Source: an uncultured Ruminococcus sp.
GTDB taxonomy: Bacteria > Bacillota > Clostridia > Oscillospirales > Acutalibacteraceae
DNA length: 64,000 nt
NCBI GenBank assembly: GCA_902765625.1
Contig: CACXAO010000001.1
Coordinates: 48,436-112,435, forward strand
Reading direction: 5' to 3'
Shown here: in pieces, positions 24,880 to 51,169 of the stretch
How positions within the stretch are numbered: the stretch's first letter is position 1
Layout: each line of letters starts with the position of its first letter
Notes under the pieces: generated by a model
Told to the model about the DNA's origin: nothing
Database searches by the model: none
The model's input: only the letters and a program-made list of their open reading frames with translations
Position numbers and translations under genes: made by a program

Positions 24880-24921
24880 AACCGTCAGGCAAATCAGCGT
24901 GTTTTAATGCGAGGGATTCAG

Positions 24922-26682
24922 ATGAATTACTGTAATAACTGTATGAGGCAAATTGAGGGAAAATCCAAATGTGAATTCTGCGGATATTCCGGCGGAGACG
25001 AGATACCGGCGCATCATCTTTTGCCGGGAACCGTCCTTTTAGGCAGGTACGTGGTCGGCAACGCTTTGGGCGAGGGCGGCTTTGGTATAACGTATATCGG
25101 CCGCGACATAAAGCTCGATATGAGAATCGCCATAAAGGAGTATTTCCCTTACGGATATGCCACGCGCTTCAATTCGGCGTCCGAAAACGTGACCGAGACA
25201 AAAGCCGGGAAAAACGGAATTTTCGACAAGGGCAGGCAAAACTTCCTGAAGGAAGCGAGGATTCTGGGCAGGTTCTCGGGAGATAAAAGCATAGTTGACG
25301 TCCGCGACTTTTTTGAGGCGAACAACACAGCCTATATCGTTATGGAGTTTGTCGACGGAATCACGTTAAGGCAGTATCTTAAAAAGAACGGCAGACTGCG
25401 TTTTGCCGATATCTGCACAATGATAACTCCGCTTTGCTCGGCTCTCGGAAGGATCCACCGCGACGGCCTGATTCACCGCGACATCAGTCCCGACAATATT
25501 ATGATACTGAAGGACGGCAGCCTGAAGCTGATGGACTTCGGCTCTGCGAGATACTACGATTTCGGAGCGGAACGCAGCCTTTCGGTAATGCTGAAGCCCG
25601 GTTACGCGCCCGAGGAGCAGTACCGCACAAAGGGCAACCAGGGACCGTGGACAGATATATACGCCATCTGCGCGACGATATACAGATCAATTACGGGAAT
25701 GACGCCGGAGGACTCCGTCGAGAGGGTCTACTCCGATAATTTGAAGCTTCCCTCCAAGCTGGGAGTGCGCATTACACCAAACCAGGAAGCGGTTCTGTTG
25801 AAGGGCTTAGCCGTCTATCAGCAGGAGAGATACAAGAGCATAGATGAATTTCTGGGCGCACTGACCCCGGTGATTTCCGAGGAATACGTTCCGCCGAGGG
25901 AGGACGGGAGCCGGAAAAAGGAAATCGCAAAAACGCCCGATCCGGTTTGCGAACCTGTCGGAGAGGACTCCGTGACAATGCCGCTGCATGAGGAACCGAA
26001 ATCCGTGCGGCAGCCATCCGAAGAACCCGTACCGCCAAAGCCTGCGCAGGAGGAACCCAAAGCGCCTGAAAGCGTTGCGCAGGAACCTTCGCCCGACGAC
26101 GCGCTGCATATGCCTTTGCCTAAGAAAAAGAGTAAAAAAGGTCTGATAATCGCAGGCATTGCCGTCGCAGCTGTTGCGCTGCTGGGAGCTGCGGCTTTTC
26201 TTGTGATAAACGCGGTTTCGGCAGGCTCATATGTAAGGGTGCCGAGGTTTGTGGCGTTTACGCTCGAGGAAGCCGAGAAAAAGGCTGAGGAAAACGAGCT
26301 AAAGCTGAGCGTCTCGGAAAAGGTGCACGATTCCTCGGTCAAGATGGGATATGTTATCTCTCAGTCTAACCCCGTCAATTCCGATGTTAAGAAGGGCAGC
26401 ACGGTTTATGTCACCGTAAGCCTGGGCAAATCGGATATCGAGGTTCCCGACCTTGCAGGCAAAACAGTGGACGAAGCAAAGGAAGCTCTTGAAAAGCTCG
26501 GCTTGGTGCTTAAAACCGAGGAGGAATACAGCGACGACGTTGACGAAGGCGAGATCATAAGCCAGAGCGTTGAAGCCGAGGAGAAGGCGGACGAAGGCAC
26601 CGAGATTACGGTTACAGTCAGCAAAGGAGAGGCGCCCGAAGACGATGACGAGGAAGATGCGGACGACTCGTCTGAGGAATAA
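24922..26682 (+). CDS. Zinc-ribbon Ser/Thr protein kinase with two PASTA domains
   Basis: A 586-residue membrane kinase. Residues 4-20 are a zinc ribbon (C4, C7, C17, C20). The kinase domain (about 35-305) has the Gly loop LGEGGFGITYIG, Lys in AIKEYFP, catalytic loop IHRDISPDNIM and LMDFGSARY. The catalytic loop has Ser where most kinases have Lys (HRDxKPxN). A Pro/Glu-rich linker, one membrane segment (about 407-432) and two PASTA domains (about 434-575) follow, ending in an acidic tail. PASTA domains of PknB-type kinases sense peptidoglycan fragments. The GAGG at 24910-24913 favours ATG 24922 over ATG 24907. It opens the cluster; a terminator separates it from the next genes. Confidence 0.88.
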   Translation: MNYCNNCMRQIEGKSKCEFCGYSGGDEIPAHHLLPGTVLLGRYVVGNALGEGGFGITYIGRDIKLDMRIAIKEYFPYGYATRFNSASENVTETKAGKNGIFDKGRQNFLKEARILGRFSGDKSIVDVRDFFEANNTAYIVMEFVDGITLRQYLKKNGRLRFADICTMITPLCSALGRIHRDGLIHRDISPDNIMILKDGSLKLMDFGSARYYDFGAERSLSVMLKPGYAPEEQYRTKGNQGPWTDIYAICATIYRSITGMTPEDSVERVYSDNLKLPSKLGVRITPNQEAVLLKGLAVYQQERYKSIDEFLGALTPVISEEYVPPREDGSRKKEIAKTPDPVCEPVGEDSVTMPLHEEPKSVRQPSEEPVPPKPAQEEPKAPESVAQEPSPDDALHMPLPKKKSKKGLIIAGIAVAAVALLGAAAFLVINAVSAGSYVRVPRFVAFTLEEAEKKAEENELKLSVSEKVHDSSVKMGYVISQSNPVNSDVKKGSTVYVTVSLGKSDIEVPDLAGKTVDEAKEALEKLGLVLKTEEEYSDDVDEGEIISQSVEAEEKADEGTEITVTVSKGEAPEDDDEEDADDSSEE

Positions 26683-26699
26683 CTAAAAAATATCAATCG

Positions 26700-26732
26700 T
26701 CCCTGTCGCAGAAAACGCGGCAGGGATTTTTG
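26700..26732 (+). terminator. Terminator after the first PASTA kinase gene
   Basis: CCCTGTCGC, loop AGAAAAC, GCGGCAGGG, then ATTTTTGC. Confidence 0.8.
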
Positions 26733-26775
26733 CATTTAAGGGATTATGCGCGGCTCACAAATTGTTGAAAAACTA

Positions 26776-26804
26776 TTGCAAATAATAAAAGATAATGATA
26801 AAAT
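26776..26804 (+). promoter_or_regulatory. Promoter for the vWA-PP2C-kinase operon
   Basis: TTGCAA, 17 bp, TAAAAT in a very AT-rich stretch, 40 bp before the first vWA gene. Confidence 0.6.
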
Positions 26805-26843
26805 ATTTATAAATTTAAAATACAATAAAAGGAAAATAAGCGT

Positions 26844-27629
26844 ATGAATAACGAAATGAAAAGAAGCATTTTTTCCAATACCGGCAAGAGACTGCTGATC
26901 ACGTTTTGTCTGGACGTTTCTCCGTCAATGGGAAACCGCGTTTTCGGCAAAAAGCCGGCTATCACCGTGCTGAATGAAACGGTCAGCGGAATCATCGCCG
27001 AGCTTTCCAAGGAGAAAAAATTGCTCAGTATGATCGAGCTGATGTTCGTTACCTTCTGCACCGACATCGTGGATGTGCACTGCACGCCGCTCAGTCAGTA
27101 CGAGCATATCAAGTTTGTCGAGCAGCCTGTAGGCGGCTCGGATATCCCGTACGCGGTGCTCGAAACCTTCAGCAGAATCGACGCGCGCATAGGCGAATAT
27201 CAGAGGGCGGGCGTGCGCTACCACAGCCCCATCTTTGTGCTGATAAGCGACGGCAATCCCGATTACGTCGAGGCGGACGATATCGAGCGTCAGGCGATGA
27301 ATCTTGTGAACGAGCGCTGCCAGAGCAACGTCACCGGCTCAGTCTGCCCGTTCATCATCGGCATCGGCGACGAACTTAACGAAAGCACCCAAACCACAAT
27401 GGCAGGCTACGCAAAGGGCTTTATGGACGGATATTTTCACATCATGGGCGACGACGCGCTGCAGTCGCGTATCGCCAAGATGATCGTCAAGCTTTTCACC
27501 TGCAGCGTAAGATACGTTGCGCAGAGCAGCAACAATTCCGCAAGGTCGCTCGGAGAGGCTGCCTGCGAAATGAATCGCGTGCAAAATCAGATCAACGAAA
27601 CAATACAGCAATACAGAAGCTTTAACTGA
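26844..27629 (+). CDS. TerY-like vWA domain protein (first copy)
   Basis: A 261-residue cytosolic von Willebrand A protein. The MIDAS motif is CLDVSPSMG at about 17-25; the second MIDAS element reads GGSDIPYAVLETF, with Ser where Thr is usual, and the third is LISDGNPDY. The arrangement matches TerY, the vWA member of TerY-P triads (vWA, PP2C, kinase). There is no signal peptide. The next gene, 20 bp downstream, is a PP2C phosphatase, and a similar vWA-PP2C pair recurs at 30823-33127. A scaffold role for phosphorylated clients is the usual proposal for TerY; it is inference here. Confidence 0.85.
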   Translation: MNNEMKRSIFSNTGKRLLITFCLDVSPSMGNRVFGKKPAITVLNETVSGIIAELSKEKKLLSMIELMFVTFCTDIVDVHCTPLSQYEHIKFVEQPVGGSDIPYAVLETFSRIDARIGEYQRAGVRYHSPIFVLISDGNPDYVEADDIERQAMNLVNERCQSNVTGSVCPFIIGIGDELNESTQTTMAGYAKGFMDGYFHIMGDDALQSRIAKMIVKLFTCSVRYVAQSSNNSARSLGEAACEMNRVQNQINETIQQYRSFN

Positions 27630-27649
27630 TATTTCGGCATGAGGTTGTT

Positions 27650-28930
27650 ATGAGCCAGTGGAAGTACGGGGAATATATTAAAACAGGCATCGTCCACGAG
27701 CGTTACGGAATGCCTTGCCAGGACAGCGTGTACGAGCTTGAGGACGAAAACTGCGCTGTAGCTGCGCTGTGCGACGGAATCGGTTCGCTGCCGCATTCCG
27801 GCAGAGCAGGACGGATCGCGTCTATGGCGGCGTGCCATATTCTGAAAAAGTGCGGCGGGATCGACTTTTACCGCCACGCCGAAGCTCCCGACGGCATGAT
27901 AAAGGACTTGCTTGAGAGAATCGACGCGTATATTTCCTACAAGTTCAACGAGAAGCATATCGACCGCACTCAGGGTGACAGCACGCTCGCGTTTGTATTT
28001 GTTTCCAAGAAATTCGGCTTTGTTTTTGCCGGATGTCTGGGTGACAGCGCGGTTTGCCTTATCAAAAAATCCGGAAACGTCTGTCTCACCGAGAACAACC
28101 CGAATATAGAGAGCACCGCGAGCGTCGGTATGCGCGAACCGTGGAAATACTGCAAAACCGCGTTGCTCAGACTCAATTCCGACGATTTTCTCGGCGCTAT
28201 CCTGACCTCCGACGGCATGGACGGCGAGATCTACGCAAAAAATACCTCGCAGGTATATCAGAACGCCGCCTATTACTTCAACTGCGCGCAGAAGGGGAAT
28301 TTCAGGGACGCGATCGCCGCGAGGGTCGAGCCGATGGTCAGGAGGAGCGGAAGCTGCTTTGACGACGATATCAGCGTCGCCGTTATCAGCCGCGCTCAGG
28401 GCGCGGTAGCTTTTCCGAAGGACTCAACGTGGCTGTGCTGCTGCGGAGAGCGCAACAGGCTCGACGACACCTACTGCAACGGCTGCGGCAGAGATTTTCT
28501 CGACGTTTACCGCAACGCACCGTTTGAAAGGTTCGGCGGCAAAACGCAGTTTTTCCGTTACGCAAATTCTCATCCCGACTTTGAAAGAAAAGCGGTGCTG
28601 CCTGCGCAGAATCCGAACGGCGGAGGCTCAAACAGCAGCCCTTTTTCAGAAACGGAGCAGGCGCATGCGGAGGTACAATCCGCAGAAAACAGACCGGAAG
28701 CTCCGGACGAAAGGTTCGAAAATAATTATGACTGGGAAAAAATCGCGGCGGCGGGCTGTCTTGCGGACGGCGAGGTCAGCTGCGGACGCGGCGTATTAAA
28801 CGGCACCGGCGGAAATCCCGACCGGGGCATGGAATGGTGGCAGAAGGTCTCGCTGCTTGTTGCCGGAGCCACAACCATAGCCGTCGGCATAACCGTGGTC
28901 GCTCTTCACAGGAAGGGCGGTAAATCATAA
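27650..28930 (+). CDS. PP2C phosphatase with zinc ribbon and C-terminal membrane anchor (first copy)
   Basis: A 426-residue protein. Residues 1-250 are a PP2C domain: CQDSVYE, ALCDGIGSLPHSG, AGCLGDSAVCL, LTSDGMDGEI and DDDISVAVIS supply the metal-binding Asp residues. A zinc ribbon follows (WLCCCGERN with YCNGCGRDFLD, about 262-285), then a disordered linker, and a single membrane segment at the C terminus (about 398-420), so the phosphatase faces the cytosol. It probably reverses the action of the neighbouring kinases. The zinc-ribbon pattern is shared with the second PP2C of the cluster. Confidence 0.88.
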   Translation: MSQWKYGEYIKTGIVHERYGMPCQDSVYELEDENCAVAALCDGIGSLPHSGRAGRIASMAACHILKKCGGIDFYRHAEAPDGMIKDLLERIDAYISYKFNEKHIDRTQGDSTLAFVFVSKKFGFVFAGCLGDSAVCLIKKSGNVCLTENNPNIESTASVGMREPWKYCKTALLRLNSDDFLGAILTSDGMDGEIYAKNTSQVYQNAAYYFNCAQKGNFRDAIAARVEPMVRRSGSCFDDDISVAVISRAQGAVAFPKDSTWLCCCGERNRLDDTYCNGCGRDFLDVYRNAPFERFGGKTQFFRYANSHPDFERKAVLPAQNPNGGGSNSSPFSETEQAHAEVQSAENRPEAPDERFENNYDWEKIAAAGCLADGEVSCGRGVLNGTGGNPDRGMEWWQKVSLLVAGATTIAVGITVVALHRKGGKS

Positions 28931-28979
28931 AGGCGCACCGCGCATTCCGCGGCTAAGCCTGAAAACGAGGAGAAGCCTA

Positions 28980-30800
28980 ATGACAGGGCAATTTGAATTA
29001 TACAATGTAGTTCTGATCGATTCGTCGCTGTTTCCGCGGACGCTTTCCGACGAACTGATAAACGGACTTAAAAGCATAAAAAACGTGTATGTCACAGGCA
29101 CCTTTCACGCCGAGACGTCGGAGCTTATGGAGCTTTTGTCTCCGGCTGACAAGGCGAACTGTGAGAACAACCTGAGATTACTCAATACGATCATTCATCC
29201 CAAGGAGATGAACCTGTCGGAATTTCCGGACATGAACTGCGACGTGTGGGATTTTCTCGCATTGAGCGCGACCCGTCCGAATGCCGACAAAATGCTGATA
29301 ATCACAGCCAACCAAGCCTTGATACAGAGGGTGGTATGCAGCCGTTTTTCGATGGATATTTACGACCTCAATAAATCGTGCTTCATCTCTCACAAGGATT
29401 ACCGCACTTTAGACAAGGAGTACTCCGTCGATAACAACGACAAGCCGGTCTGCGATATCGCCTTTAAAGGGCTGCGTGAGGGAGCCCGGCTTTATGCGGT
29501 GCGCAGAGAGGGCAAAATTAATGAAACCGTCACTCTCGGCAGTATGCTCGGCGACGGAACCGGCGGCGAAGGAAACGTTTACCACCTGACGGGAAGGTAC
29601 TCGAACGAGGTCGCCAAAATTCTTAAATCTGGTCAGTTTCCGGGCAATAAGTACCTTGTGACGACCGAAATGGTCAGAAATCCGCGTTTCGGAGCAATTG
29701 AGTGGACGGAGTTCCCCACGGGTATTCTTTACGCGGACGCCGCCTGCACTCAGCCGGTCGGCATTATGGAGCGTTACACCGAAACCCACAGCAGCCTTTA
29801 TGACGACGAGCTGTTTTTCGGAGACACCGGCAACTGGTCGAGCGCGCTGCTGAGCGTGCGCGTGGTCGATCTGCTCTACCTCTGCAAATGTATTACGCGC
29901 CAGATCTGCTTTTTGAATATGCTCGGCGTTCTGGTCGGCGATTATAATATAAAAAATTTCGACTATCCCGCGTCGCTGCGCAGCGCTCAGGCAGGTCATC
30001 CGCAAAACGGCGTCTGCCGGTATATTCAGATGTGGGATTCCGACAGCTTCGGCTACAACAACTATTTCAGCGGCTACATGGCTGACGTCAACTGCAAGCA
30101 TTACGACATCACGCGCAGGCTCGATATCCTCAATCTGTGCAACGACGAGCTGTACACATTTTTGTTTCAGATACTTACCCTCGGCGATAATCCCTACAAC
30201 CCGGTGACGGGCAGGTTCAACTACGAGGATGAAAACTACGGCGAGTACGCGCGCAGGGAGTTTGTTCCGAAATCGATCTGGAACGCGTTTGAGCGCTTCT
30301 TTACCGGAAAATCCACATCGTCTCCGCAGATGATGCTGTATCTGCTTCACAACGAGCTCAAAAAGCGCGAAGCGTCGCCCGAAATTGATATCACCTACAA
30401 GGACATTGTCGGCAATATTGACGTCGGATTTTTTGAGGAGCAGGACCGCGTTCTGCCTGCTGTTTACTCACCGGCGCTAAATATTTTCCCGAAGAGCGGC
30501 AGGGTTGAGCCACAAAATACGGTACCGCCGCAAAAAGTCGCACCACCTCAAAGGGTCGTACCTCCGCAAAAAGTCGTACCGCCGCAAAGAGTCGTACCGC
30601 CGCAAAAAGTCGTACCGCCGCAAAGAGTCGTGCCGCCGCAAATGGTCGTGCCGCCGCAAAGAGTCATGCCTCCGCAGAACAAGCGGCAGATTACGCCTGT
30701 TCAGCCCAAAAAGAGCAAACGCGGCCTGATGATCGCAGGCATTGTTGCAGGCTCGATATTTACACTGCTTTTGTTAATTTTACTGTTCTTTTTCATATAA
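28980..30800 (+). CDS. Fusion of PIN-like domain, divergent protein kinase and membrane anchor
   Basis: A 606-residue protein. Residues about 8-150 look like a PIN domain: Asp 14 in VVLIDSSLF, Glu 45 in GTFHAETSEL, DVWDFLAL and the strand MLIITANQALI, which lacks the usual final acidic residue (TND). Residues about 185-480 resemble a divergent kinase: Gly loop GDGTGGEGNVYHL (about 191), Lys in EVAKILK (about 211), catalytic-loop equivalent LVGDYNIKNFD (about 318) and WDSDSFGY (about 353) as DFG. A repeat-rich Pro/Gln linker leads to a C-terminal membrane segment (about 582-604). It lies between the two vWA-PP2C pairs and may be the kinase of the triad. Domain calls are by eye. Confidence 0.65.
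   Translation: MTGQFELYNVVLIDSSLFPRTLSDELINGLKSIKNVYVTGTFHAETSELMELLSPADKANCENNLRLLNTIIHPKEMNLSEFPDMNCDVWDFLALSATRPNADKMLIITANQALIQRVVCSRFSMDIYDLNKSCFISHKDYRTLDKEYSVDNNDKPVCDIAFKGLREGARLYAVRREGKINETVTLGSMLGDGTGGEGNVYHLTGRYSNEVAKILKSGQFPGNKYLVTTEMVRNPRFGAIEWTEFPTGILYADAACTQPVGIMERYTETHSSLYDDELFFGDTGNWSSALLSVRVVDLLYLCKCITRQICFLNMLGVLVGDYNIKNFDYPASLRSAQAGHPQNGVCRYIQMWDSDSFGYNNYFSGYMADVNCKHYDITRRLDILNLCNDELYTFLFQILTLGDNPYNPVTGRFNYEDENYGEYARREFVPKSIWNAFERFFTGKSTSSPQMMLYLLHNELKKREASPEIDITYKDIVGNIDVGFFEEQDRVLPAVYSPALNIFPKSGRVEPQNTVPPQKVAPPQRVVPPQKVVPPQRVVPPQKVVPPQRVVPPQMVVPPQRVMPPQNKRQITPVQPKKSKRGLMIAGIVAGSIFTLLLLILLFFFI
30522..30680 (+). repeat. About nine 18-bp coding repeats (PPQ-R/K-VV)
   Basis: Tandem units of the form GTCGTACCGCCGCAAARA encode VVPPQ[KR] repeats in the linker before the membrane anchor. 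Third-base differences between units show some age. Copy number could vary between strains. Confidence 0.85.
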
Positions 30801-30822
30801 ACACAAAAAGGAGATGATCCGT

Positions 30823-31590
30823 GTGAATGACGCAAGAAGATTCGGAAATACAATCAAGCGGCTTCCGATCGTATTTTGTCTGGACGTCTCGCCTTCCATG
30901 GGCTGGGATATAGATAACCGGGATATTATCCCGATGGAGCTGCTCAACAATTCGGTAAATACTTTCATCCGCGAGATAAACAGCGACGGCAGAACACGCT
31001 CGTCAGCCGAGGTTTCCTATGTAACCTTTTCAACCGACATAGAGGTGGATTCTCCGTTTATTCCGGCGCGAAATCTCGACAATATCCATCTCAGACCCGT
31101 CAGCGAGGGCGGAACGAATATGGCGCAGGCGGTACTTCGCTCGTACCAGAAGCTTGAGGAACGCGTAAACGAATATGTCAGAAGCGGCATACGCTTTAAC
31201 GTGCCGTTTTTCGTTCTTGTCACCGACGGAAATCCCGACGACAACGACGACGGCTACCTTCAGGAGCAGGCGATCGCCACCGTTAACGCCCACTGCCATT
31301 CGCATCAGGGCGCAAGCGGACTTGTCATCCCGTTCATCGTCGGGGTAGGCAAGAGGGTAGACAGCAAAACGCTGCTGAGGTACTCGCAGGGCTTTACAAA
31401 CGGTTTCTTCCATATCCGCGGAGATTCCGAGCAGGTGCAGACCTGTTTTTCGGACGTGTTCAGGGTAATAAGCAACAGCACAAAGGCAAGCGTTCACCTT
31501 AATCTTTCGACCGACGCGATTGTCGACACGATAAGGGCTACGATGAACAAGGGCTTGGACGATCTCGACAGAGAGCTTGCAGGATATTAG
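30823..31590 (+). CDS. TerY-like vWA domain protein (second copy)
   Basis: A 255-residue cytosolic vWA protein. MIDAS elements are CLDVSPSMGWD, GGTNMAQAVLRSY (Thr present, unlike the first copy) and LVTDGNPDDND. Overall order and the conserved EYVRSGIRFNVPFFVL segment match the first copy, so the vWA-PP2C pair is a tandem duplication that has diverged. AAGGAG at 30808-30813 lies directly before an ATG at 30814, too close to serve it; the GTG at 30823, nine bases away, is the better start. Confidence 0.85.
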   Translation: MNDARRFGNTIKRLPIVFCLDVSPSMGWDIDNRDIIPMELLNNSVNTFIREINSDGRTRSSAEVSYVTFSTDIEVDSPFIPARNLDNIHLRPVSEGGTNMAQAVLRSYQKLEERVNEYVRSGIRFNVPFFVLVTDGNPDDNDDGYLQEQAIATVNAHCHSHQGASGLVIPFIVGVGKRVDSKTLLRYSQGFTNGFFHIRGDSEQVQTCFSDVFRVISNSTKASVHLNLSTDAIVDTIRATMNKGLDDLDRELAGY

Positions 31591-31609
31591 TCGTTAGACA
31601 GAGGTTGAT

Positions 31610-33127
31610 ATGAATAACTGGAGATATACATATTATCAGCAAAGAGGAATCCGCCACAGAGTATGTCAGGACTGCGTAAGGGTTTATTCGGATAATCAGC
31701 GCATTATCGCCTGCCTTTGCGACGGTCTCGGTTCGCTGAATAATTCAGATTTGGCGGCTCAGGTCGCGGTGAAGTCCGTCATTGAGATACTCGGCGAATA
31801 CAATCCGTTTCGCTGTTCCGACGTAACCGCGGACAATCTCGCGCATTTCAAAAAGAAGCTGATTTCGGAAGTGCAAAGACGCATTGCGGCAGCGGCAAAG
31901 GAAAAGGGCTTTTCGCTCGCCTCGCTTGACTGTACGCTGCTGTTTGTCTGCATGTTCCCTCAGTACAACACCGTCCTGACAGGAAATCTCGGCGACAGCG
32001 CGCTCTGCATTATCCGTGATAACCGGTCGCCCGAAATTTTATGCGACAGCACCTTTGTCGGTACGCGCGCAGTAATGGACAAGGACGCGGCGGAGCAGAT
32101 CCACTGCAAGGTTTTTCCGCTTGACGAGCACGTCAAGAGCATTCTGCTCACCTCCGACGGACTTGAAAACGAGATATTCTTCAAGGGTCTTGATTTTCTC
32201 GGCAAAGAAACCGAGATATATCTTAACGCGATGCTCTCAGACCGTCCGAAGGAGATAATTCAAAACAGAATCCGTCTTTTGACCTCAGACAGAGATACGA
32301 TCTTTGACGACGACATAAGCATCGCCGTGATCAGCTGCCTAAATCAGCCGGTTGTGCTTGAGGATGAACCGACGTGGCCGTGCGTGTGCGGAAATGAAAA
32401 TCCGCTCTACGAGACCTTCTGCACCAACTGCTCAAGAGACTTCCTTGATTTGTACAGGAACATAGATTTCAAGGGCAAAAAGACCGAGTTCTTCCGCAGG
32501 CTTCAGCGCAATCCGGCAGAGAAAAAGGCTCTTACCGACGCGATGCACGGAGGCAGCGCGAGAGCGTATGAAAATCCCTTTGCTTCAAAACCCCGTCCCT
32601 CGGCGCAAAACGCGTCCTTTGCTCAGCCTGGCGTAAGGCAGCCGGGCGGCGGAAAGGTACCGCCCGCCGCAAACGCCCCGGCGCCGCCCGGCGCTCCGCA
32701 GAGCTTTCAGCCGCGTTTTGCTGAACAGGAGAAATATCCCGGCAGCTCCTTCAACACCCCGGTCCGTCAGCCCGAACCGGAGCTGAGACCGGTTCAAGGC
32801 GTTTCGCCGGAAGGAGGCAGAAGCGGAATATCAACGCCGATAGCCGTCATCCTCGTCGTTGCGGCGTTGATCGCGGGAATGCTCATAAGCGGCGTGGTCG
32901 TGATGCTGCTCAAGGACAGGCAGATCAAAGGTCTGGAGGAGCAGCTTTCTCAGGCGCTCGAGTATACGATCGTAACAGAAGCCGAGGAAGCTACTGCGGA
33001 CTCAAGCGCGAAAGCGACCGCCGACGAGCACGGCGAAAACTCATCAAACGCAGAGTCAGGCGAATCGCAGCATGATCACAGCTCGGCAGACGCGCAGGAA
33101 TTTGCGGATGAAATTATTGCAGATTAA
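31610..33127 (+). CDS. PP2C phosphatase with zinc ribbon and membrane anchor (second copy)
   Basis: A 505-residue protein with the same plan as the first copy: a PP2C domain (CQDCVRVY, CLCDGLGSLNNS, TGNLGDSALC, LTSDGLENEI, DDDISIAVIS), a zinc ribbon (WPCVCGNEN with FCTNCSRDFLD, about 258-282), a long Pro/Ala/Gln linker and a membrane segment (about 404-428). Unlike the first copy it has a further extracellular tail rich in Glu, Ser and Ala. The conserved W-x-C-x-CG-x2-N and RDFLD-x-YRN around the ribbon show a common origin. A terminator follows. Confidence 0.88.
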   Translation: MNNWRYTYYQQRGIRHRVCQDCVRVYSDNQRIIACLCDGLGSLNNSDLAAQVAVKSVIEILGEYNPFRCSDVTADNLAHFKKKLISEVQRRIAAAAKEKGFSLASLDCTLLFVCMFPQYNTVLTGNLGDSALCIIRDNRSPEILCDSTFVGTRAVMDKDAAEQIHCKVFPLDEHVKSILLTSDGLENEIFFKGLDFLGKETEIYLNAMLSDRPKEIIQNRIRLLTSDRDTIFDDDISIAVISCLNQPVVLEDEPTWPCVCGNENPLYETFCTNCSRDFLDLYRNIDFKGKKTEFFRRLQRNPAEKKALTDAMHGGSARAYENPFASKPRPSAQNASFAQPGVRQPGGGKVPPAANAPAPPGAPQSFQPRFAEQEKYPGSSFNTPVRQPEPELRPVQGVSPEGGRSGISTPIAVILVVAALIAGMLISGVVVMLLKDRQIKGLEEQLSQALEYTIVTEAEEATADSSAKATADEHGENSSNAESGESQHDHSSADAQEFADEIIAD

Positions 33128-33135
33128 AAAAGTAT

Positions 33136-33176
33136 CAGCCACTTTGAACAAAAATTCAGGGTGGCTGTATTGTTTT
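33136..33176 (+). terminator. Terminator after the second PP2C gene
   Basis: CAGCCAC and GTGGCTG enclose a longer loop and are followed by TATTGTTTT. Confidence 0.6.
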
Positions 33177-33231
33177 GCCGTCCCGGGGTCATTTTTTAAT
33201 ATAAATCCTGAACATAATGTCGAAAATATAG

Positions 33232-33260
33232 TGGACTTTATCGCGAATTTGTGGTAGAAT
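33232..33260 (+). promoter_or_regulatory. Promoter for the downstream ATPase operon
   Basis: A weak -35 (TGGACT), 17 bp, then TAGAAT preceded by TGG (extended -10), 47 bp before the RCC1/LRR gene. No terminator is seen from here to 48208, so the genes from 33307 to 48196 may form one transcript of about 15 kb. Confidence 0.5.
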
Positions 33261-33306
33261 ATATAGGATATAGAGAGAACGTTCAGTTACAGGAGATGGC
33301 GGTAAT

Positions 33307-34584: not shown

Positions 34585-34642
34585 CCGCAATTTTTATAAA
34601 AGCGCCGTTAAGGTGCGGTACGGAAAAGGTGAGACATTTATT

Positions 34643-36253: not shown

Positions 36254-36256
36254 AAT

Positions 36257-37903: not shown

Positions 37904-37909
37904 TAAACC

Positions 37910-40368: not shown

Positions 40369-40383
40369 TTGGAGGTACAAATA

Positions 40384-41817: not shown

Positions 41818-41835
41818 CGGGGAGGAGTATCTCTA

Positions 41836-42711: not shown

Positions 42712-42728
42712 TCAGAAAGGAAAACAAA

Positions 42729-44414: not shown

Positions 44415-44480
44415 TAAAATCCGCCGGAAAACACGCTTTTGTTCGCACAGCCTGCGCGGAGATGAATAAGGAATGATAAT

Positions 44481-45950
44481 ATGTCAGTGAATACCGAAAT
44501 CATTGAGAAAAAGAGTTTTGAGGAACGCTTTCACACCTGCTTTGGAAAAATGCTCGTCTGCAAGTCGTCCTCAAATACCAAATTTTTCGCGGAGCAGAGT
44601 CTGCCTTCGTTTATCAGGGACTGGCTTGTCATGCGCTTTTCAGACAGCGACGGCGCTGTGGATGAAGAAAAGCTCTCCGCGTACATAAAGAAAACCATTC
44701 CGAACAAGGAGCAGTGGAACAACATTCTGGTGGATATGCTCTATCATAATGAATCGGCGCGGTTTCTGGCGAAGGTAAAAATCGATTTTGATATGAAGAA
44801 AAAGCAGGCGCTGTTCTCCTTACCGGCGTTTCAGGTGCCTGAGCGAAAGGGCGGAGCGGTTGTTGACTGGAGCGTCATCGAACGCCACCGCGACGAGCTT
44901 TTGTCCTCGGCGGACGTCTGGGGAATCGTTACGATCCGCTGCGAGTCCGACGGGGAAGGCAAAAACAACGTCTTTAAGCTTGTAGACTTCACTCCGTTCT
45001 GCCCGTATAATATCGATTTGAACTACTATTCAAACGCAAGGCAGTATTTCACGACCGAAGAATGGATCGATATCATCCTCTCAGCTATCGACTATAATCC
45101 TGACGCTTATTCGAATCAGGAGGAAAAGCTCTCCGTCCTCAAGCGTCTGCTGCCTTTTGCAGAGAAGCGCGTAAATCTTATTGAGCTTGCGCCCAAGGAG
45201 ACAGGCAAATCGTATATGTTCTCAAGGCTGAGTCAGTACGGCTGGCTGATCAGCGGCGGAAGCATATCTCGCGCAAAGATGTTTTACGACATTTCGAAGC
45301 GCACAAACGGCCTTGTCTCAAAGTACGACTACGTTGCGCTCGACGAGATCTCAAGCATCAAGTTTACCGATAAAATGGAAATGCAGGGCGCGCTGAAAGG
45401 ATATCTTGAAAGCGGCGACTACCACGTCGGCGATTACCGCGGCGTGGGCGACGCAGGCATGGTGCTGCTCGGAAACATCGCCCACGAAACGATGGACACA
45501 AACGTCAATATGTTTGAGCAGCTCTCCGATCTGTTCTGCGATTCCGCGCTGCTCGACCGCTTTCACGGCTTTATTAAGGGCTGGGAGATTCCCAAAATGC
45601 GCGAGAGCCTGAAGGCGAACGGTTGGGCGCTCAACACCGAATACTTTGTCGAGATACTTCACACTCTGCGCGGCAAAACCGTCTACCGCTCGGTTGTGAA
45701 TCAGCTTGTAGAGGTGGGACCCGACGCCGCCACGCGCGACACCGAGGCGGTAAAGCGGCTCGCTACGGCATACCTCAAGCTGCTCTTCCCGGACGCGACG
45801 GATGTGAGCAAGGTAGACCGCGAGGAGTTCAGACGATATTGTCTGGAGCCTGCCGTTGAAATGCGCAGCGTGATAAAAACCCAGCTCGGCATTATCGACC
45901 CGGGCGAATTTCAGGGAAAGACCGTCCCGGAATTTACTCTCAAAAATTAG
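44481..45950 (+). CDS. BrxL-like AAA+ protein lacking the Lon protease domain
   Basis: A 489-residue cytosolic protein. The sequence follows BrxL, the Lon-like protein of BREX phage-defence systems: FTTEEWIDIIL, the P-loop region VNLIELAPKETGKSYMFS, WLISGGSISRAKMFYD, Walker B YDYVALDEISSIK, VLLGNIAHE, and LLDRFHGFIKGWEIPKMR near the arginine-finger region. BrxL proteins are about 680 residues and end in a Lon (S16) domain; here the chain stops after the AAA+ lid (EMRSVIKTQLGIIDPGEF). The P-loop has Glu where BrxL has Gly (PKG to PKE). No other BREX gene is in the window. Confidence 0.82.
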   Translation: MSVNTEIIEKKSFEERFHTCFGKMLVCKSSSNTKFFAEQSLPSFIRDWLVMRFSDSDGAVDEEKLSAYIKKTIPNKEQWNNILVDMLYHNESARFLAKVKIDFDMKKKQALFSLPAFQVPERKGGAVVDWSVIERHRDELLSSADVWGIVTIRCESDGEGKNNVFKLVDFTPFCPYNIDLNYYSNARQYFTTEEWIDIILSAIDYNPDAYSNQEEKLSVLKRLLPFAEKRVNLIELAPKETGKSYMFSRLSQYGWLISGGSISRAKMFYDISKRTNGLVSKYDYVALDEISSIKFTDKMEMQGALKGYLESGDYHVGDYRGVGDAGMVLLGNIAHETMDTNVNMFEQLSDLFCDSALLDRFHGFIKGWEIPKMRESLKANGWALNTEYFVEILHTLRGKTVYRSVVNQLVEVGPDAATRDTEAVKRLATAYLKLLFPDATDVSKVDREEFRRYCLEPAVEMRSVIKTQLGIIDPGEFQGKTVPEFTLKN

Positions 45951-45962
45951 GAGACCTTCATT

Positions 45963-47612
45963 ATGACTGAAACCGAAAGAGTAGATCTCGAGCAGTTCAG
46001 GATGACCTGCGACGCGGTAAAACAGATGGAAATAAACGTTGCGGACAGCCTGAGCAACAGCCCGAACCGTCTTGTGGGCTATGCGGACTACACCGACGTT
46101 TTCCGCAGCATGATCCCGATAGTTCAGTTTGACAGGAGCGGAGACGTCAGCGGCTGGGACGACTTTTCCGAAATTTTTCCCGATACCCTGCCGTACGGGC
46201 GTTCCACCACCGCGGCGGTAATGTTCACGGGTCAGACAGGCTGCGGACGGCACACGGCTGACAAAACGATGATGAGCGTTGCTCTCGATACCGTGAGAAA
46301 AGCGGCTGAGTCTGCCGAGGATGACGACGATTTGTTCGGGATGCTGGACGAGCCAGATTACGATAAGGATATCCGCTACTATCTGATTGATTTTAACGCG
46401 TTCGGCGGAGTTCCCGAGCGGTTGTTTATGAAGGACATGGACGAGCTGTTTTCGCAGATGATGAAAACTGCGGCGGCAGAGCCTTCTGCGGTGTTTTATT
46501 ACTCGCTGGGAAACGTCACCGATATTCTTAACAACAAAAAGCTTACCGCGAGGTTCCTCTACAACGTAGGGCGAATCAAAATGAATCCGCGTTCGCGCTG
46601 TATTCTCACGTGCATCTACGACGGAAAGGCCGAAACCCTTACCGAAAACATTAAGCAACCGTTTTTTGTTCTGGAATTTGATTTGCCGACAAAACGCGCC
46701 CGGCAGGAGTATTTCCGCTACCTTACAGACCGCTACATGAATATAAAAATAGATCTGAACGCCGACGAGCTTACCGAGCTTACAGAGGGCTTTACGTTCG
46801 CGATGATAAAAAAGCTCGCCGCTCATATGATGATGACAGTAAAGGCGGAGATCGTCGCGAAGAAGCTGAACCCCGACAACTACGTCCGTCAGGCGACCAT
46901 CAACGAGCTTGAGGTTCTCATAATCGACGCAAAGAAAATCAAACGGCTCGTTAAGCTCATCAAAATAACGCAGTATACCGAGCTGTCGCCGCCTGCAGCG
47001 GCTTACCCTGCGGCGTATCCGGTTGCGTACGCGCCTCAGGCTGCGGTTCCCTCCGAACCCGCGCAGGCTGCTCCGCAGCAGGCGATGCCCGAGATGAACG
47101 ACGAGGATTTGGACAAGTCGGTTGAAGCCAGCATAGAAAACATAGACACGCCCGATCAGTTCTTTGAGGTGCGCGAAAATATGCTGCGGCCTACGGGCTA
47201 TTCGCCCGTGATTCTGATGGAGCGCGGAAAGATGTATCCGCAGGCGTTCCGCGACGAAAATATTCCGCTCAGGCATTTTCTTATCAGGTGCCGCGAGGAG
47301 GGCTTTGCTTCGCTCGACAACATCCACACCGCCTTTGCGGAGGCGAACAAAAACGGAGGTCTCGGCTTCCGTCCGCTCAATTCTTCGCTGCTTCTCAAGG
47401 ACAGGACTGAAATTGCCGAGGACGACGGCAGAATTTTGTTCGGCGAAGTTATTATGGAGGGAAAGGCGATTGCCGCCAACCTTTCTGAGCTGGGTCACGA
47501 CGTGAACTGGCTCAAGGCTCAGCTTGTTGAGCAGGGTTGTTCCTCGACCGCAGAGGTTTTCCTCGGAATCTGCGAAGCAAAAGACAAGCTCGTTTTATTC
47601 AAAAACGAGTAG
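45963..47612 (+). CDS. Degenerate AAA+ ATPase
   Basis: A 549-residue cytosolic protein. The Walker A region reads VMFTGQTGCGRHTADK (about 81-96), with Arg-His in place of Lys-Ser/Thr, so ATP hydrolysis is doubtful. YYLIDFNAF is the probable Walker B strand, and CILTCIYDGKAETL resembles sensor 1. FVLEFDLPTKRARQEYFRYL and the following helical segment look like an AAA+ lid. The linker from about 345 to 385 is Ala/Pro/Tyr-rich, and a separate C-terminal domain (about 410-545) follows. It lies 12 bp after the BrxL-like gene; a heteromeric ring with an active ATPase is possible. Confidence 0.65.
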   Translation: MTETERVDLEQFRMTCDAVKQMEINVADSLSNSPNRLVGYADYTDVFRSMIPIVQFDRSGDVSGWDDFSEIFPDTLPYGRSTTAAVMFTGQTGCGRHTADKTMMSVALDTVRKAAESAEDDDDLFGMLDEPDYDKDIRYYLIDFNAFGGVPERLFMKDMDELFSQMMKTAAAEPSAVFYYSLGNVTDILNNKKLTARFLYNVGRIKMNPRSRCILTCIYDGKAETLTENIKQPFFVLEFDLPTKRARQEYFRYLTDRYMNIKIDLNADELTELTEGFTFAMIKKLAAHMMMTVKAEIVAKKLNPDNYVRQATINELEVLIIDAKKIKRLVKLIKITQYTELSPPAAAYPAAYPVAYAPQAAVPSEPAQAAPQQAMPEMNDEDLDKSVEASIENIDTPDQFFEVRENMLRPTGYSPVILMERGKMYPQAFRDENIPLRHFLIRCREEGFASLDNIHTAFAEANKNGGLGFRPLNSSLLLKDRTEIAEDDGRILFGEVIMEGKAIAANLSELGHDVNWLKAQLVEQGCSSTAEVFLGICEAKDKLVLFKNE

Positions 47613-47656
47613 AAAAGCGGCGTTTAATTGCGGAATAATTGAAACGGAGAAATGTT

Positions 47657-48196
47657 ATGTTTGTCAGGCAAACTGTTTTGCGGAGTATAACGGCGGTGTT
47701 CTTCGCGCTTTCGGTATTGTTGATGATAACCGAAATGCTGGATACGCGCATTTACTCGGTCACCTTTTATTTGTTTCTGTACTATCTGTCGCCTGTCGCC
47801 GGACTTCTGACCGCATTGCTGATAGGGAAGTTCGAAAAATTGTCTTTGATCGTTCTGACCGTTGCGACCTGCCTGCTGCATATCATGATTTTTGGCAGTC
47901 AGTTCAAAGATTTGCCGCTTGATATGTCGAGCACGAAGTTCGAATTGATTTCGAACGTGCTGGTTATTGCAGGCTGCGCTGCGCTATTTCTCGGCGGCGT
48001 TTTGCTCAGAAGCGTGCCGCGCAGAGTTTTGTGCCTTTGCGCCTGCGCCGCCTTTGTGCTTGCGGCGGCATTTGAGGGATGTATATGCGTCAGGTATCTT
48101 GTGACCGACGTCGGTCTTACAAATCTCATCAGAACCTCCCTTCTTGCCGTCTGCAAATCTCTCGGCATGGCAGGCTTGGCGCTTCAGCGAAAATAG
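47657..48196 (+). CDS. Small integral membrane protein
   Basis: A 179-residue protein with about five hydrophobic segments (ITAVFFALSVLLMITEML, FYLFLYYLSPVAGLLTALLI, LIVLTVATCLLHIMIF, LVIAGCAALFLGGVLL, LCLCACAAFVLAAAFEG). No family is recognised. GGAGA supports ATG 47657 rather than the TTG at 47639. It ends the plus-strand operon and precedes a bidirectional terminator shared with the convergent kinase gene. Confidence 0.7.
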   Translation: MFVRQTVLRSITAVFFALSVLLMITEMLDTRIYSVTFYLFLYYLSPVAGLLTALLIGKFEKLSLIVLTVATCLLHIMIFGSQFKDLPLDMSSTKFELISNVLVIAGCAALFLGGVLLRSVPRRVLCLCACAAFVLAAAFEGCICVRYLVTDVGLTNLIRTSLLAVCKSLGMAGLALQRK

Positions 48197-48207
48197 TATA
48201 AAAAAAC

Positions 48208-48249
48208 CCGAAGTCCGGAAGATGAGCCGGATTTCGGAGTTTCTTTTTT
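48208..48249. terminator. Bidirectional terminator at the convergence of the cluster halves
   Basis: CCGAAGTCCGG and CCGGATTTCGG form an 11-bp stem. T-runs follow on both strands (TTTCTTTTTT on plus, GTTTTTTT on minus). Confidence 0.88.
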
Positions 48250-50209
48250 AAAGAAGGCTGTACGCCTCGTTTTTTGCCTGAGTCTCAAACGGACACGAGA
48301 TGTTTCCGTAATCGTAGGTGTTTTTGTTGTTGTCGATATATCGGATAAGGATGTCGTCGGAAAAATACAGGCGGTGTTCTTCCGTACCGTCAAAAATCAG
48401 CGCAAAATACAGCTTATTGTCTTTGTAGTAATATTCTCTTGAGTAGTTCCAGCCGGAGTAGCCGTTGGAACAAACGATCTTTGTTGTTTTGCCGTTTCTT
48501 TTGTAATACGTTACGTCGCCGTCTGTGGTCTTTTTTCCGGGATATGCCTGAGTCGCGTAGTAGTCAATGCGGATCTGAGAGATCTCGCCGTCAACGTCAA
48601 TATACGGAAGGGTGGTTGGAGCCTGCGTTGTGGGTTCCGTGGGCTTGCCCGAGGATACAAACAGCATAATCGTGTCGCCCTTGTTTACCTCTCGTCCTGA
48701 TTGAATGCTCTGGCGGATAACGTAACCCTCGGCGACCTCGCTGCTTTCCTCATACTCGGTGTCGACCTTCAAACCGAGCTTTTCAAGCTCCGACTTTGCG
48801 TCCGAGAGCTTTTTGCCGGACACGTCGGTTACCGTAACGGTTTGCTTTTCGGTAGGCTTCGCGGTTGTGGGAGCTTCGGTTTTTGGGGCTTCCGTCGGCT
48901 TTGCGGTTTCGGCGGAGGTTGAGGCTGCGGTCTCGTTTTTGGAATTGTTGTTTATGATAAATATCGCTGCCATCGCGGCCAATATCCCGACGATCAGAAC
49001 CGAGATGATAACGATTGCCGCAATCAGACCCGCGTTTTTCTTTTTGCGCTGAGCGCCGTTCTGCTGATTCTTCTGCATACGGTCAGCTCTTTTTTTATTG
49101 GAATACAAATCCTCCTGCGGTTTTTGGTTGTTGTACGAATCTCCGTAGGTTCTGTGGAGGGGCGCAGTGGTTCTTTCGCTGTCGTCCGGCTTTTTCATGC
49201 GGTTGATGTCAAACTTAGGTACTGGCGGTTCGTCAGTCGGAACCATCTCGTTGCGCAGCGCCGCTTCGGTAAGCTGTATCAGCTTTGACATGTTCGGACA
49301 GCGGTTTTCGGGGTACACCGCAAGACCGTACATGAGAACCTTTTGCAGCGGAGCGCTGATTCGTATACCCAGTTCGGACGGCTTTTTAAGCGTGTCGAGC
49401 CGCGCGCGGTTGAGCGAATCGGTGGGTATGCAGTCTGTGATGCACTTGTAAATCGTTGCGCAAATGCCGTAAACATCCGTCCACGGACCCTGATTTCCGT
49501 TGCTGGTGTACTGCTCGTACGGCGCAAAGCCCGGCTTGAGCAAAACCGACATGGTCTTTTTCTGCGCGCCGGCAAAGAACCTCGCGGAGCCGAAATCCAT
49601 AAGCTTCAGACTTCCGTCCTCCGTAACCTTGATGTTGTCGGGCGCGATGTCGCGGTGAATGATGTTCTCGCTGTGCATTTTTTCGAGCGAGCGCATAATG
49701 GGGAGCATGAGGGTAAAGATGCTTTCCGCCTCAAAAACACGGCCTTTTCTGACAAGCTCCGAAAGTGTCTGCCCGTCGACGTATTCCATGATGATGTAGG
49801 CGGTATTGTTTTCGGTAAAGTAATCCCTTACGTCGACGATTCCCTTTTCCTTTGAGAACTTGGCAAGGCTCTGAGCCTCGCGCAAAAACTGACTTCTGCC
49901 GTTCTTGAAGTATTCTCCCTCGTTTTGGTAATTGATCGTTATGTTGTTGGTCGCCTTGTTGTTTCTGTTGGCGAAGCCGTTCGGGTAGAACTCCTTGACG
50001 GCGATTTTTAAATTCAGATTCAGATCCAAGCCTACGTAGGTAATGCCGAAGCCGCCTTCGCCGATAGAAGCTCCGACGAGGTATTTGTTCTGAAGCAGGG
50101 TTCCGGGAATGAGGTGGTGCGGAACATCCTTGATCTGGGTGCTGCCGCCGCAGTGCGGACAAAAAAGCTCTCCGTCCCCGATCTGATTCATACAATGATA
50201 GCAGTACAT
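48248..50209 (-). CDS. Zinc-ribbon Ser/Thr protein kinase with one PASTA domain
   Basis: A 653-residue membrane kinase of the same plan as the one at 24922. A zinc ribbon has C3, C6, C17 and C20. The kinase domain has IGEGGFGITYVG, AVKEFYPNGFANR, IIHRDIAPDNI (Ala for the usual Lys) and LMDFGSARF. A Lys-rich linker precedes a membrane segment (about 407-432), a Thr/Pro-rich linker, one PASTA domain (about 475-540) and a unique extracellular C-terminal domain with many Tyr and Asp residues. AAAGAGGG before ATG 50209 decides the start; the frame to 50242 lacks a site. It lies downstream of the third PP2C gene, which may oppose it. Confidence 0.88.
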   Translation of the reverse strand: MYCYHCMNQIGDGELFCPHCGGSTQIKDVPHHLIPGTLLQNKYLVGASIGEGGFGITYVGLDLNLNLKIAVKEFYPNGFANRNNKATNNITINYQNEGEYFKNGRSQFLREAQSLAKFSKEKGIVDVRDYFTENNTAYIIMEYVDGQTLSELVRKGRVFEAESIFTLMLPIMRSLEKMHSENIIHRDIAPDNIKVTEDGSLKLMDFGSARFFAGAQKKTMSVLLKPGFAPYEQYTSNGNQGPWTDVYGICATIYKCITDCIPTDSLNRARLDTLKKPSELGIRISAPLQKVLMYGLAVYPENRCPNMSKLIQLTEAALRNEMVPTDEPPVPKFDINRMKKPDDSERTTAPLHRTYGDSYNNQKPQEDLYSNKKRADRMQKNQQNGAQRKKKNAGLIAAIVIISVLIVGILAAMAAIFIINNNSKNETAASTSAETAKPTEAPKTEAPTTAKPTEKQTVTVTDVSGKKLSDAKSELEKLGLKVDTEYEESSEVAEGYVIRQSIQSGREVNKGDTIMLFVSSGKPTEPTTQAPTTLPYIDVDGEISQIRIDYYATQAYPGKKTTDGDVTYYKRNGKTTKIVCSNGYSGWNYSREYYYKDNKLYFALIFDGTEEHRLYFSDDILIRYIDNNKNTYDYGNISCPFETQAKNEAYSLL

Positions 50210-50223
50210 ATTATCCCTCTTTG

Positions 50224-50339
50224 TTAAGGCAATACCGCACAATTACGGTGTGCGGATTGCGAAGTAAGTTTTTTTGGACAGTCTGACGGAATAAGATTCA
50301 AGCAAGACGTGCGCCGCGAATTATGCGGTGCTGCCTTAA
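50224..50339. mobile_element. MITE-like element of 116 bp
   Basis: The ends are inverted repeats over about 20 bp: TTAAGGCAATACCGCACAAT on the left, and TTAAGGCAGCACCGCATAAT as the complement of the right. Both ends are bounded by TTAA, possibly the target duplication. The inside has no coding frame. The stop codon of the PP2C gene (50336-50338) lies within the right end. Confidence 0.6.
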
Positions 50340-51121
50340 ACTTTTTCAATCACCATACAGGTAACGTTGTCCTCGCCGCCGTTTTCAAGCGCCTTGTCTG
50401 TGAGCTGAATAGTATAAGGCTGATCCGGTACCGAAAGGATCCTGCGGATTTCCTCGTCGCTGCACATATCATACAGGCCGTCGCTGCAAATCAGCAGCTT
50501 ATCGCCCTCGTCGAGGGTCAGCTCGCCGTAGGATTCCGCGAAGAACTCGGGCGACTCCTCGTCCATTCCCAGAAAACGGGTGAGAATATGGCTTTCGGAG
50601 CTTTCTTCCGCTTCCTCAAGCGTAAAAATATTCGCCTCATATTTCTTTTGGGCAAGGGTGTGATCCCTCGAAACGCGCGTCAGTCTGCCGCCGCGGTACA
50701 GATAAATCCTCGAATCGCCCATTGTGAACAGCTCCGCCGTGCCGTCGTTCAGGTAAGCCATCGCAAATGTGCTGCCGCCGCGGTTGAGCTTGTTCATATC
50801 GAGAAACTGCCTGATCTGACCGGTGGCGCTTTGAACATATTTCTGAATTACTTCGGAGGCGGGCTGCTTTTCGCTCGAAAGATAGTCGTATAGCTTCGCC
50901 GCGACGAGAGCCGAGATCTGCGACGCTTCTCTGCCGCCTTTTTCGCCGCCCATCCCGTCAAAAACCGCGCACAGAAGAGGCTCGGACGTACAATTTGCCC
51001 TTAGATGCTGAGTCTTGTCACCGGATTCTCTGACGATGTTTTTGATTGTAAAATTGTCCTCGTTTACGGCTCTTAATTTGCCTTTGTCGGTAGAAATTAA
51101 TACCTTGTAGTTAATACACAT
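50336..51121 (-). CDS. PP2C-type Ser/Thr phosphatase (Stp/PrpC-like)
   Basis: A 261-residue cytosolic phosphatase of the compact type that pairs with PASTA kinases. Motifs are RAVNEDNF, AVFDGMGGEKGG, TMGDSRIYLYRGG, LLICSDGLYDMC and GGEDNVTCMVIE, so all metal-binding Asp residues are present. It has no zinc ribbon or membrane anchor, unlike the other two PP2Cs of the cluster. Its stop codon is provided by the terminal repeat of the MITE-like element, so its C terminus (VIEKV) may have been trimmed or altered. It has its own promoter at 51170-51198. Confidence 0.92.
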   Translation of the reverse strand: MCINYKVLISTDKGKLRAVNEDNFTIKNIVRESGDKTQHLRANCTSEPLLCAVFDGMGGEKGGREASQISALVAAKLYDYLSSEKQPASEVIQKYVQSATGQIRQFLDMNKLNRGGSTFAMAYLNDGTAELFTMGDSRIYLYRGGRLTRVSRDHTLAQKKYEANIFTLEEAEESSESHILTRFLGMDEESPEFFAESYGELTLDEGDKLLICSDGLYDMCSDEEIRRILSVPDQPYTIQLTDKALENGGEDNVTCMVIEKV

Positions 51122-51169
51122 AATATATACCCGGTTTGCTGCCGTTATTATTTCTGTAAATACGCTTCT

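Follow-up and report, generated by a model that had tools for sequence, protein, structure and literature searches.

Do the genes crowded between positions 24907 and 51121 of an uncultured Ruminococcus contig (CACXAO010000001.1) form one system, and if they do not, which of them belong together? We use the term window for the whole 64-kb stretch of DNA that was analyzed (52% GC); the genome from which it comes (2.14 Mb, 93 contigs) is 88.9% complete. Nineteen genes were identified in this part of the window, on the forward strand unless stated otherwise. Every gene named in a first-pass annotation is present as an open frame where it had been placed, and two genes absent from it were added, encoding a 165 aa zinc-ribbon protein (ZnR, 39871-40368) and a small hydrophobic protein of 185 aa (TM185, 47639-48196). 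Domain scans (Pfam, NCBIfam) identified two PASTA kinases, three PP2C phosphatases, an RCC1/LRR protein, an Hsp70-like protein, an AAA ATPase and a genuine BrxL. The cluster genes do not form one unit. The core consists of eight genes (34613-44414 and 45963-47612), and it is this core that recurs elsewhere.

Conservation and distribution of the eight-gene core

Scanned with an alignment of the AAA protein, genome contigs gave 145 relatives, of which the best 80 were used. Seven of these (L100-L106), from other phyla or unnamed organisms and with 27-34% identity to part of the AAA protein, were set aside before counting. The 73 loci that were counted (L027-L099) comprise 71 from Clostridia, one from Bacilli (by name) and one from an unnamed bacterium. 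We refer to the 48 with at least 9 kb of upstream and at least 3 kb of downstream sequence as full loci; the other 25 are short of flank. The 73 loci cannot all be taken as independent; near-copies and loci from a single isolate account for a few of them, and six (L059, L064, L068, L080, L086 and L087) are apparently contigs of genomes G100, G447, G514, G106, G500 and G435. The profiles used for counting were seeded with the window proteins, and the loci from which they were built are those that were counted. HEL-A varies in sequence and was therefore counted by position and length, as a frame of fitting length immediately upstream of HEL-B.

All eight core genes were identified in 41 of the 48 full loci. 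The genes for the Hsp70-like and coiled-coil (CC) proteins are present in all 48, those for HEL-B and the degenerate AAA partner (DEG) in 47, those for UNK546 (UNK) and HEL-A in 46 (HEL-A partly by position alone) and that for ZnR in 45. The order UNK-Hsp70-CC-ZnR-HEL-A-HEL-B-AAA-DEG recurs among the loci with some local swaps, and the same neighbours surround the core genes in distant carriers. Because the order is conserved in relatives, the cluster is more than a product of chance. Co-occurrence in other genomes had been set beforehand as a test of the first-pass annotation, and it was found for the Hsp70, AAA, coiled-coil and helical genes; homologues scattered singly, named as the opposite pattern, did not appear at the limits used.

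The distribution of the block is patchy. Protein searches identified the Hsp70-like gene in three of 150 genomes of the family and the AAA gene in five of 394 genomes of the order, the source genome included in both cases, and three further genomes of the same genus named in the order-level AAA search gave no match. Several record titles of the 73 loci mention gut or rumen sites, and the carriers named as isolates or strains are Anaeromassilibacillus sp. An172 (L080) and Hominifimenecus microfluidus CLA-AA-H215 (L092). Of 30 genomes of the genus, 28 encode a close relative (E 1e-100 or better) of the ABC transporter that adjoins the block. A clean empty site in the genus was not demonstrable, as the upstream side differs in the four loci compared.

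Two loci show local duplication. HEL-A occurs as three tandem copies in L035 (4887-9037), compared with one copy in other loci, and the AAA gene as two tandem copies in L061 (8978-11750).

Core proteins and accessory genes

Five of the core proteins, UNK546 (34613-36253), CC (37910-39874), ZnR, HEL-A (HEL482; 40369-41817, start likely 40384) and HEL-B (HEL291; 41836-42711), match no family above cut-off in Pfam or NCBIfam. For UNK546, no Pfam family was found in more than one of 44 members at E 0.1 (among the first 25 of 27 families). Its C-terminal half is homologous to HEL-A (hhalign 98%), and both proteins match chiefly coiled-coil and helical-bundle structures in comparisons with PDB profiles. 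HEL-B is predicted by AlphaFold2 (pLDDT 89) to form a long helical hairpin followed by short helices.

The Hsp70-like protein (36257-37903) matches the HSP70 model (1.6e-11; 43.6 bits vs. a cut-off of 20.6), and no solved relative was found by sequence at the limits used. ATP binding and hydrolysis are plausible for this protein, because its nucleotide motifs (DFGSTY, DYGGGTLD and GGF) are 93-100% conserved in 61 sequences, the window included.

The AAA ATPase (42708-44414, start likely 42729; AAA 1.6e-31, 109.9 bits) is of the Cdc48/Vps4/katanin type. Its P-loop K180, D236/E237 and R294 are invariant in 55 sequences. Foldseek matches the core of the AlphaFold2 model (pLDDT 85.5) to p97/Cdc48 and katanin, and the best NCBIfam matches are CDC48 and CdvC, both below cut-off. 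The model begins with a three-helix domain (residues 2-86; helices 2-29, 36-55 and 58-86), a block with pLDDT of 86-97 up to residue 80, and in the form encoded in the window it ends with a beta domain.

DEG (45963-47612) had been labeled a degenerate AAA+ protein. Its relationship is well supported, as profile comparison with the neighbouring AAA family gives 99.9% (hhalign), and DEG keeps a P-loop-like glycine pattern. The Asp-Glu pair of Walker B is present in none of the 18 rows shown of 67, and four of the 18 have two adjacent acidic residues at that site (DD, ED, ED and EE). To judge from these motifs DEG is likely inactive in most members. The C-terminal part of DEG in the window matches the C-terminal domain of YetF (DUF421; PF04239, 3.3e-14), an odd partner for such a protein.

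BrxL (44481-45950) is a short form of 489 aa that passes TIGR02688 (431.7 bits vs. a cut-off of 329.3). The first-pass annotation had counted it among the parts of the system, and it proves to be an accessory: 12 of the 73 loci have it, and in all of these BrxL is the next profile match 3' of the AAA gene. A HerA-type ATPase is also encoded in 12 of the 73, in ten 3' of DEG and in two between AAA and DEG, and the two motors never occur together. In L014 the HerA protein has the DUF87 HerA central domain. In a tree of the AAA proteins (70 rows, 69 loci and the window), with labeled rows alone considered, the BrxL rows (13) and the HerA rows (12) require one change each, and each set occupies a single side of a supported branch (100/99); 45 unlabeled rows were not counted, and some of these lie inside. 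Both motors are known from antiviral systems (PMC12839542). Other motors near the core include FtsK-type ATPases in L055 and L099 and, in L072, a DUF4011 helicase with an MTES_1575 domain. The N-terminal region of the FtsK-type ATPase of L055 (18122-22027) looks like a coiled coil and recalls the EssC-like ATPases of extended CoCoNuT operons.

A protein with RCC1 and BspA-type LRR repeats (33307-34584; LRR_5, RCC1_2) is encoded immediately upstream of the core in the window. It is a recurrent accessory, with profile matches in 28 of the 48 full loci; the same profile gave no match in six core-less stretches (L015, L111 and L155-L158), a small control. We used the profile count because a count by regular expression (20 of 48) was too strict and missed known RCC1 cases. 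Several loci encode repeat proteins of other kinds (DUF285, LRR, PASTA, Sel1) close to the core. Large DUF285/LRR proteins are encoded 3' of AAA or DEG in L053, L054, L060 and L061; the one in L053 has an N-terminal zinc ribbon, and in L054 a run of short frames has a broken-up look. TM185, 3' of DEG in the window, is not conserved (no profile match in the 73 loci).

The signalling operon and the flanking genes

Upstream of the repeat protein are two TerY-like vWA genes, two PP2C phosphatase genes and PINK. VWA2 (30814-31590) passes the VWA model (8.1e-10, 39.6 bits), and VWA1 (26844-27629), the first gene of the operon, falls below its cut-off (E 0.028; 15.1 bits vs. 23.8) and was recognized through 37% identity to VWA2. 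PP2C1 (27650-28930; PP2C_2 1.9e-18) and PP2C2 (31610-33127; PP2C_2 5.9e-20), the latter encoded by the last gene, each have a zinc-ribbon-like Cys motif and a hydrophobic segment, which is C-terminal in PP2C1. PINK (28980-30800) had been described as a PIN-like/kinase fusion. The frame is present, and the residues expected of a putative PIN-like N-terminal region (D14, E45/E48, D91) and of a kinase-like region (K213, D321, D353/D355) are conserved in all three homologous sequences, but the label finds no support from Pfam, NCBIfam or PDB profiles, and no solved relative was identified at the limits used. A hydrophobic segment follows at the C-terminus. Among 245 genomes of the order, PINK matched only its own genome, besides three matches to its proline-rich tail. 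An 18-nt tandem repeat in PINK (30491-30688) encodes a proline-rich linker that is shorter or missing in two relatives.

Whole genomes were searched for vWA genes, because the 10-kb flanks of the loci mostly stop short of this upstream region. The genomes of 38 of the 73 loci were covered. With a profile built from the two window proteins, both were identified in G519 and G520, to which L027 and L028 belong; the other 36 core-bearing genomes gave nothing at E 1e-6, with a two-row profile that may miss more divergent vWA proteins. G519 and G520 keep the 15 genes from VWA1 to DEG (26844-47612) in order, with protein identities of 41-80% (75% and 70% for VWA1, about 79% for VWA2), and both have orthologues of PP2C1. 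L027 is also nearest to the window on the AAA tree. Neither stretch matched any flanking window gene tested, nor KIN1, KIN2, PP2C3 or TM185, at the tblastn limit used. With gene order kept and flanks that differ, 26844-47612 looks like a unit. To judge from the 36 of 38 genomes that the vWA profile misses, the triad appears to be an addition in one small clade, and the same blank argues against an expanded TerY-P system as the first-pass annotation had conceived it. What stands of that proposal is that a vWA-PP2C-kinase set adjoins the core in three genomes (the window's, G519 and G520), but it is not a constant partner.

Gaps between genes are -4 to 66 bp within the runs 26844-33127 and 33307-48196. 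The two wider gaps, of 161 and 179 bp, each hold a terminator-like hairpin (26699-26727 and 33136-33167) right after the end of a gene, and a third such hairpin (48208-48237) follows TM185. Terminator-like sites number 13 vs. 12.8 expected in 24700-34700 and 34 vs. 24.0 in 34601-51400. As the count in the first interval is at chance, it is the strength and place of the hairpins alone that speak for these terminators. There are probably three units, namely KIN1, VWA1-PP2C1-PINK-VWA2-PP2C2, and the RCC1/LRR gene to TM185, so that the vWA, PP2C and PINK genes are probably an operon separate from the core. A single co-regulated run, as had been suggested, is improbable given the hairpin-bearing gaps and the opposite strand of KIN2 and PP2C3.

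KIN1 (24907-26682) and KIN2 (48248-50242, reverse strand) are zinc-ribbon PASTA Ser/Thr kinases (Pkinase and PASTA matches, above cut-off in both proteins) that flank the block. Their zinc ribbons are Cys motifs read in the sequence, with an additional sub-threshold zinc-ribbon match in KIN2. PP2C3 (50336-51121, reverse strand) is a Stp1-like phosphatase that reaches 149 of the 230 bits needed for NF033484; a PP2C domain is above cut-off in all three phosphatases. Relatives of KIN1 are encoded in 13 of 30 genus genomes, with five copies in its own genome, and the PP2C3 profile matches in one of the 73 loci. KIN1, KIN2 and PP2C3 are most likely local neighbours and not part of the block, because they are absent beside it in G519 and G520 and the kinases have paralogues across the genus. 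These membrane kinases, which the first-pass annotation had placed in control of the machine, are probably not part of it. The KIN1 profile has matches in 14 loci, which raised the idea that the core always comes with a kinase. We rejected it: when ten proteins (eight matches to the KIN profile and two others) were checked against Pfam at E 1e-6, two had a kinase domain, seven had RCC1, LRR or DUF285 repeats and one had PASTA and LRR.

The two kinase genes also contain a 112-nt inverted repeat of 75% identity (25444-25555 and 49576-49687) whose copies are 24 kb apart and bracket the block. This pair could favour inversion of the segment between. A tRNA-Leu gene (gag; 57794-57874) lies about 6.7 kb downstream of PP2C3, in a region that also aligns in one genus relative.

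Candidate functions and known systems

A response to invaders fits best with the constant ATPases, the accessory DNA motors, the recurrent repeat proteins and the patchy occurrence. We tentatively propose, with a confidence that falls just short of an even call, that the core is a patchily distributed multi-ATPase module of Clostridia, likely defending against phage or other invading DNA; a part in phage or stress response may be envisaged as follows. The Hsp70-like ATPase, with the coiled-coil, zinc-ribbon and helical proteins, would form an ATP-gated oligomeric scaffold, and AAA and DEG would assemble into a mixed ring that remodels or dismantles the scaffold or its target. The repeat protein (RCC1/LRR) could serve in recognition, a BrxL or HerA motor would act on the invading DNA, and membrane-tethered kinase and PP2C proteins with their vWA partners may set the threshold. 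From assembly to interference, these steps are offered as a possible sequence.

Several observations weigh against defence. Pfam and NCBIfam reveal no domain of a nuclease, methylase or toxin in the core of the window, so the restricting step is missing. Neither BrxL nor HerA is encoded in 29 of the 48 full loci (49 of 73 overall), and these motors are therefore not essential. When ten of the 19 proteins were compared with PADLOC models, KIN1 matched a PD-T4-6 kinase model (225 bits), AAA matched IetA/TRIP13 and BrxL matched BrxL; among UNK, Hsp70, HEL-A, AAA and DEG, the match of AAA was the sole strong one. The GC content of the block resembles its surroundings. The families most frequent in 97 downstream flank proteins (of 179 candidates; first 25 of 148 families) are metabolic, and no PADLOC family occurs in more than four of the 97 (first 25 of 46 families), unlike rich defence islands. 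The Hsp70 query had no match in a phage collection, viral contigs gave two distant AAA matches and plasmids gave partial AAA matches of less than 60% identity. Carriage of the block by phage or plasmids, which we considered, is unsupported by these collections with the queries used.

Three other explanations of the same genes were weighed. A pairing of Hsp70 with an AAA unfoldase is the classic arrangement for disaggregation, and the core could be a protein-quality or envelope-stress machine that serves a special client, e.g., a surface or secreted repeat protein (RCC1, LRR or DUF285). The repeat proteins near the core, which often have DUF285, LRR or PASTA domains, and the metabolic flanks are in keeping with this. 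However, a housekeeping chaperone would not be expected to occur so patchily or to be linked to BrxL, HerA or other DNA motors, and neither a J-domain nor GrpE was matched in the cluster (Pfam); we regard the explanation as unlikely, if the least so among the alternatives. Somewhat less probable again is an ESCRT-like membrane remodeller, in which HEL-B (perhaps also HEL-A) would polymerize like ESCRT-III, AAA would recycle it via a MIT-like N-domain, and the Hsp70-like and coiled-coil proteins would regulate assembly. HEL-B is encoded directly 5' of AAA, its modeled hairpin with shorter helices has the closed form of archaeal CdvB at rank 4 of 252 weak Foldseek matches (E 0.61), and the AAA protein has the three-helix N-terminal domain, of a size that we take to be fitting for MIT, as well as the sub-cut-off resemblance to CDC48 and CdvC. 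Yet no Foldseek match of HEL-B is below E 0.001, and the other top ones include SNARE, F-BAR and designed bundles. Neither Snf7 nor PspA is among the first 25 of 116 families for 76 HEL-B members (each family in at most six members), MIT is not among the first 25 of 29 families for 45 AAA N-terminal domains, and PDB profile searches returned unrelated weak matches. The hhalign comparison of HEL-B with ESCRT-III and PspA gives less than 1%; since ESCRT-III against PspA, run as a positive control, fails as well, this comparison favours neither view.

The two ideas may be combined: the core would then be an ESCRT-like immune machine whose HEL-B and HEL-A polymerize on membranes or invader complexes and are disassembled by the Vps4-type AAA (through its MIT-like domain) with DEG, under gating by Hsp70 and with an exchangeable DNA motor. 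We consider this improbable. Ranked lowest by a small step is the notion that a TerY-P-like triad and an Hsp70-AAA module, two unrelated systems, lie side by side by chance. Their apparently separate transcription units and the vWA matches in just two of 38 core-bearing genomes would fit, but the 15-gene order is retained in two other genomes at 41-80% identity with flanks that differ, and the near-confinement of PINK to its own genome also speaks against it.

The vWA-PP2C-PINK operon recalls TerY-P, which is reportedly due to Anantharaman et al. 2012. According to PMC11090510, a TerY-P triad consists of a vWA protein, a PP2C and a kinase with a C-terminal zinc ribbon, and such triads accompany Hsp70-containing CoCoNuT restriction systems. 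Two vWA genes, two PP2C genes and one kinase-like gene (by motif only) likewise share an operon here (26844-33127), but the zinc-ribbon-like Cys motifs are on the PP2Cs, in PINK a PIN-like region precedes the kinase-like part and a hydrophobic tail follows it, and the set is only an add-on to the core. CoCoNuT systems further resemble the cluster in their coiled-coils, Hsp70-like ATPase, zinc ribbons and TerY-P with duplicated vWA genes, and one variant has a Cdc48-like AAA with LRR (PMC11090510). The cluster differs in that no McrC/DUF2357, UPF1-like helicase or HEPN nuclease was matched among 20 proteins (Pfam). Its AAA protein has a p97/katanin-like fold and scores 109.9 bits with AAA vs. 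27.5 with AAA_5 (cut-off 22), the family to which McrB is usually assigned.

The BrxL of the window is real and is short like the Type 4 form described in PMC12839542, but it is optional in the module, and no PglZ was identified in its own genome at 88.9% completeness. A PglZ match was found in one of 13 BrxL-carrying genomes, the window's included and mostly drafts. As PglZ was not found in the other 12, BrxL probably works outside BREX here. Neither a PglX methyltransferase nor BrxC was identified among the cluster proteins (Pfam/NCBIfam), to which that search was confined.

The match of AAA to the IetA model (90.8 bits, PADLOC) recalls IetAS. IetS is a serine protease, and no protease domain was matched in the cluster apart from the naming of BrxL (Pfam). 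NTP-driven assemblies with Hsp70 or kinase-PP2C-vWA regulation are also described among conflict systems (Kaur et al. 2020, PMC7159879); these centre on GTPases or MoxR, and neither domain was matched in the cluster (Pfam). A Vps4-like AAA beside helical partners resembles bacterial Vps4-like AAA genes, which according to PMC11237479 have been transferred with snf7 displaced by an unrelated gene. Here no Snf7/PspA homologue was detected, and Hsp70, DEG and the coiled-coil protein are additional partners. CoCoNuT with TerY-P, the Hsp70 conflict systems and the bacterial Vps4-like AAA proteins are the nearest described relatives in spirit, none having this core as far as the comparison goes. That the gene set matched no described system, as the first-pass annotation had it, agrees with our finding no published description, a weak negative since most subscription journals and bioRxiv preprints lay outside the literature covered.

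In summary, an eight-gene module, with five genes of no known family, occurs in 73 loci and is undescribed in the literature covered. If it serves defence, it would be of a new kind, in which an Hsp70-type and a Cdc48/Vps4-type AAA ATPase are constant and the DNA motor is accessory, and BrxL would have a defined setting outside BREX. Should the module remodel membranes or scaffolds instead, Clostridia would have an ESCRT-like machine. In both cases its constant parts are now defined, and the module may represent a new bacterial defence or remodelling machine.

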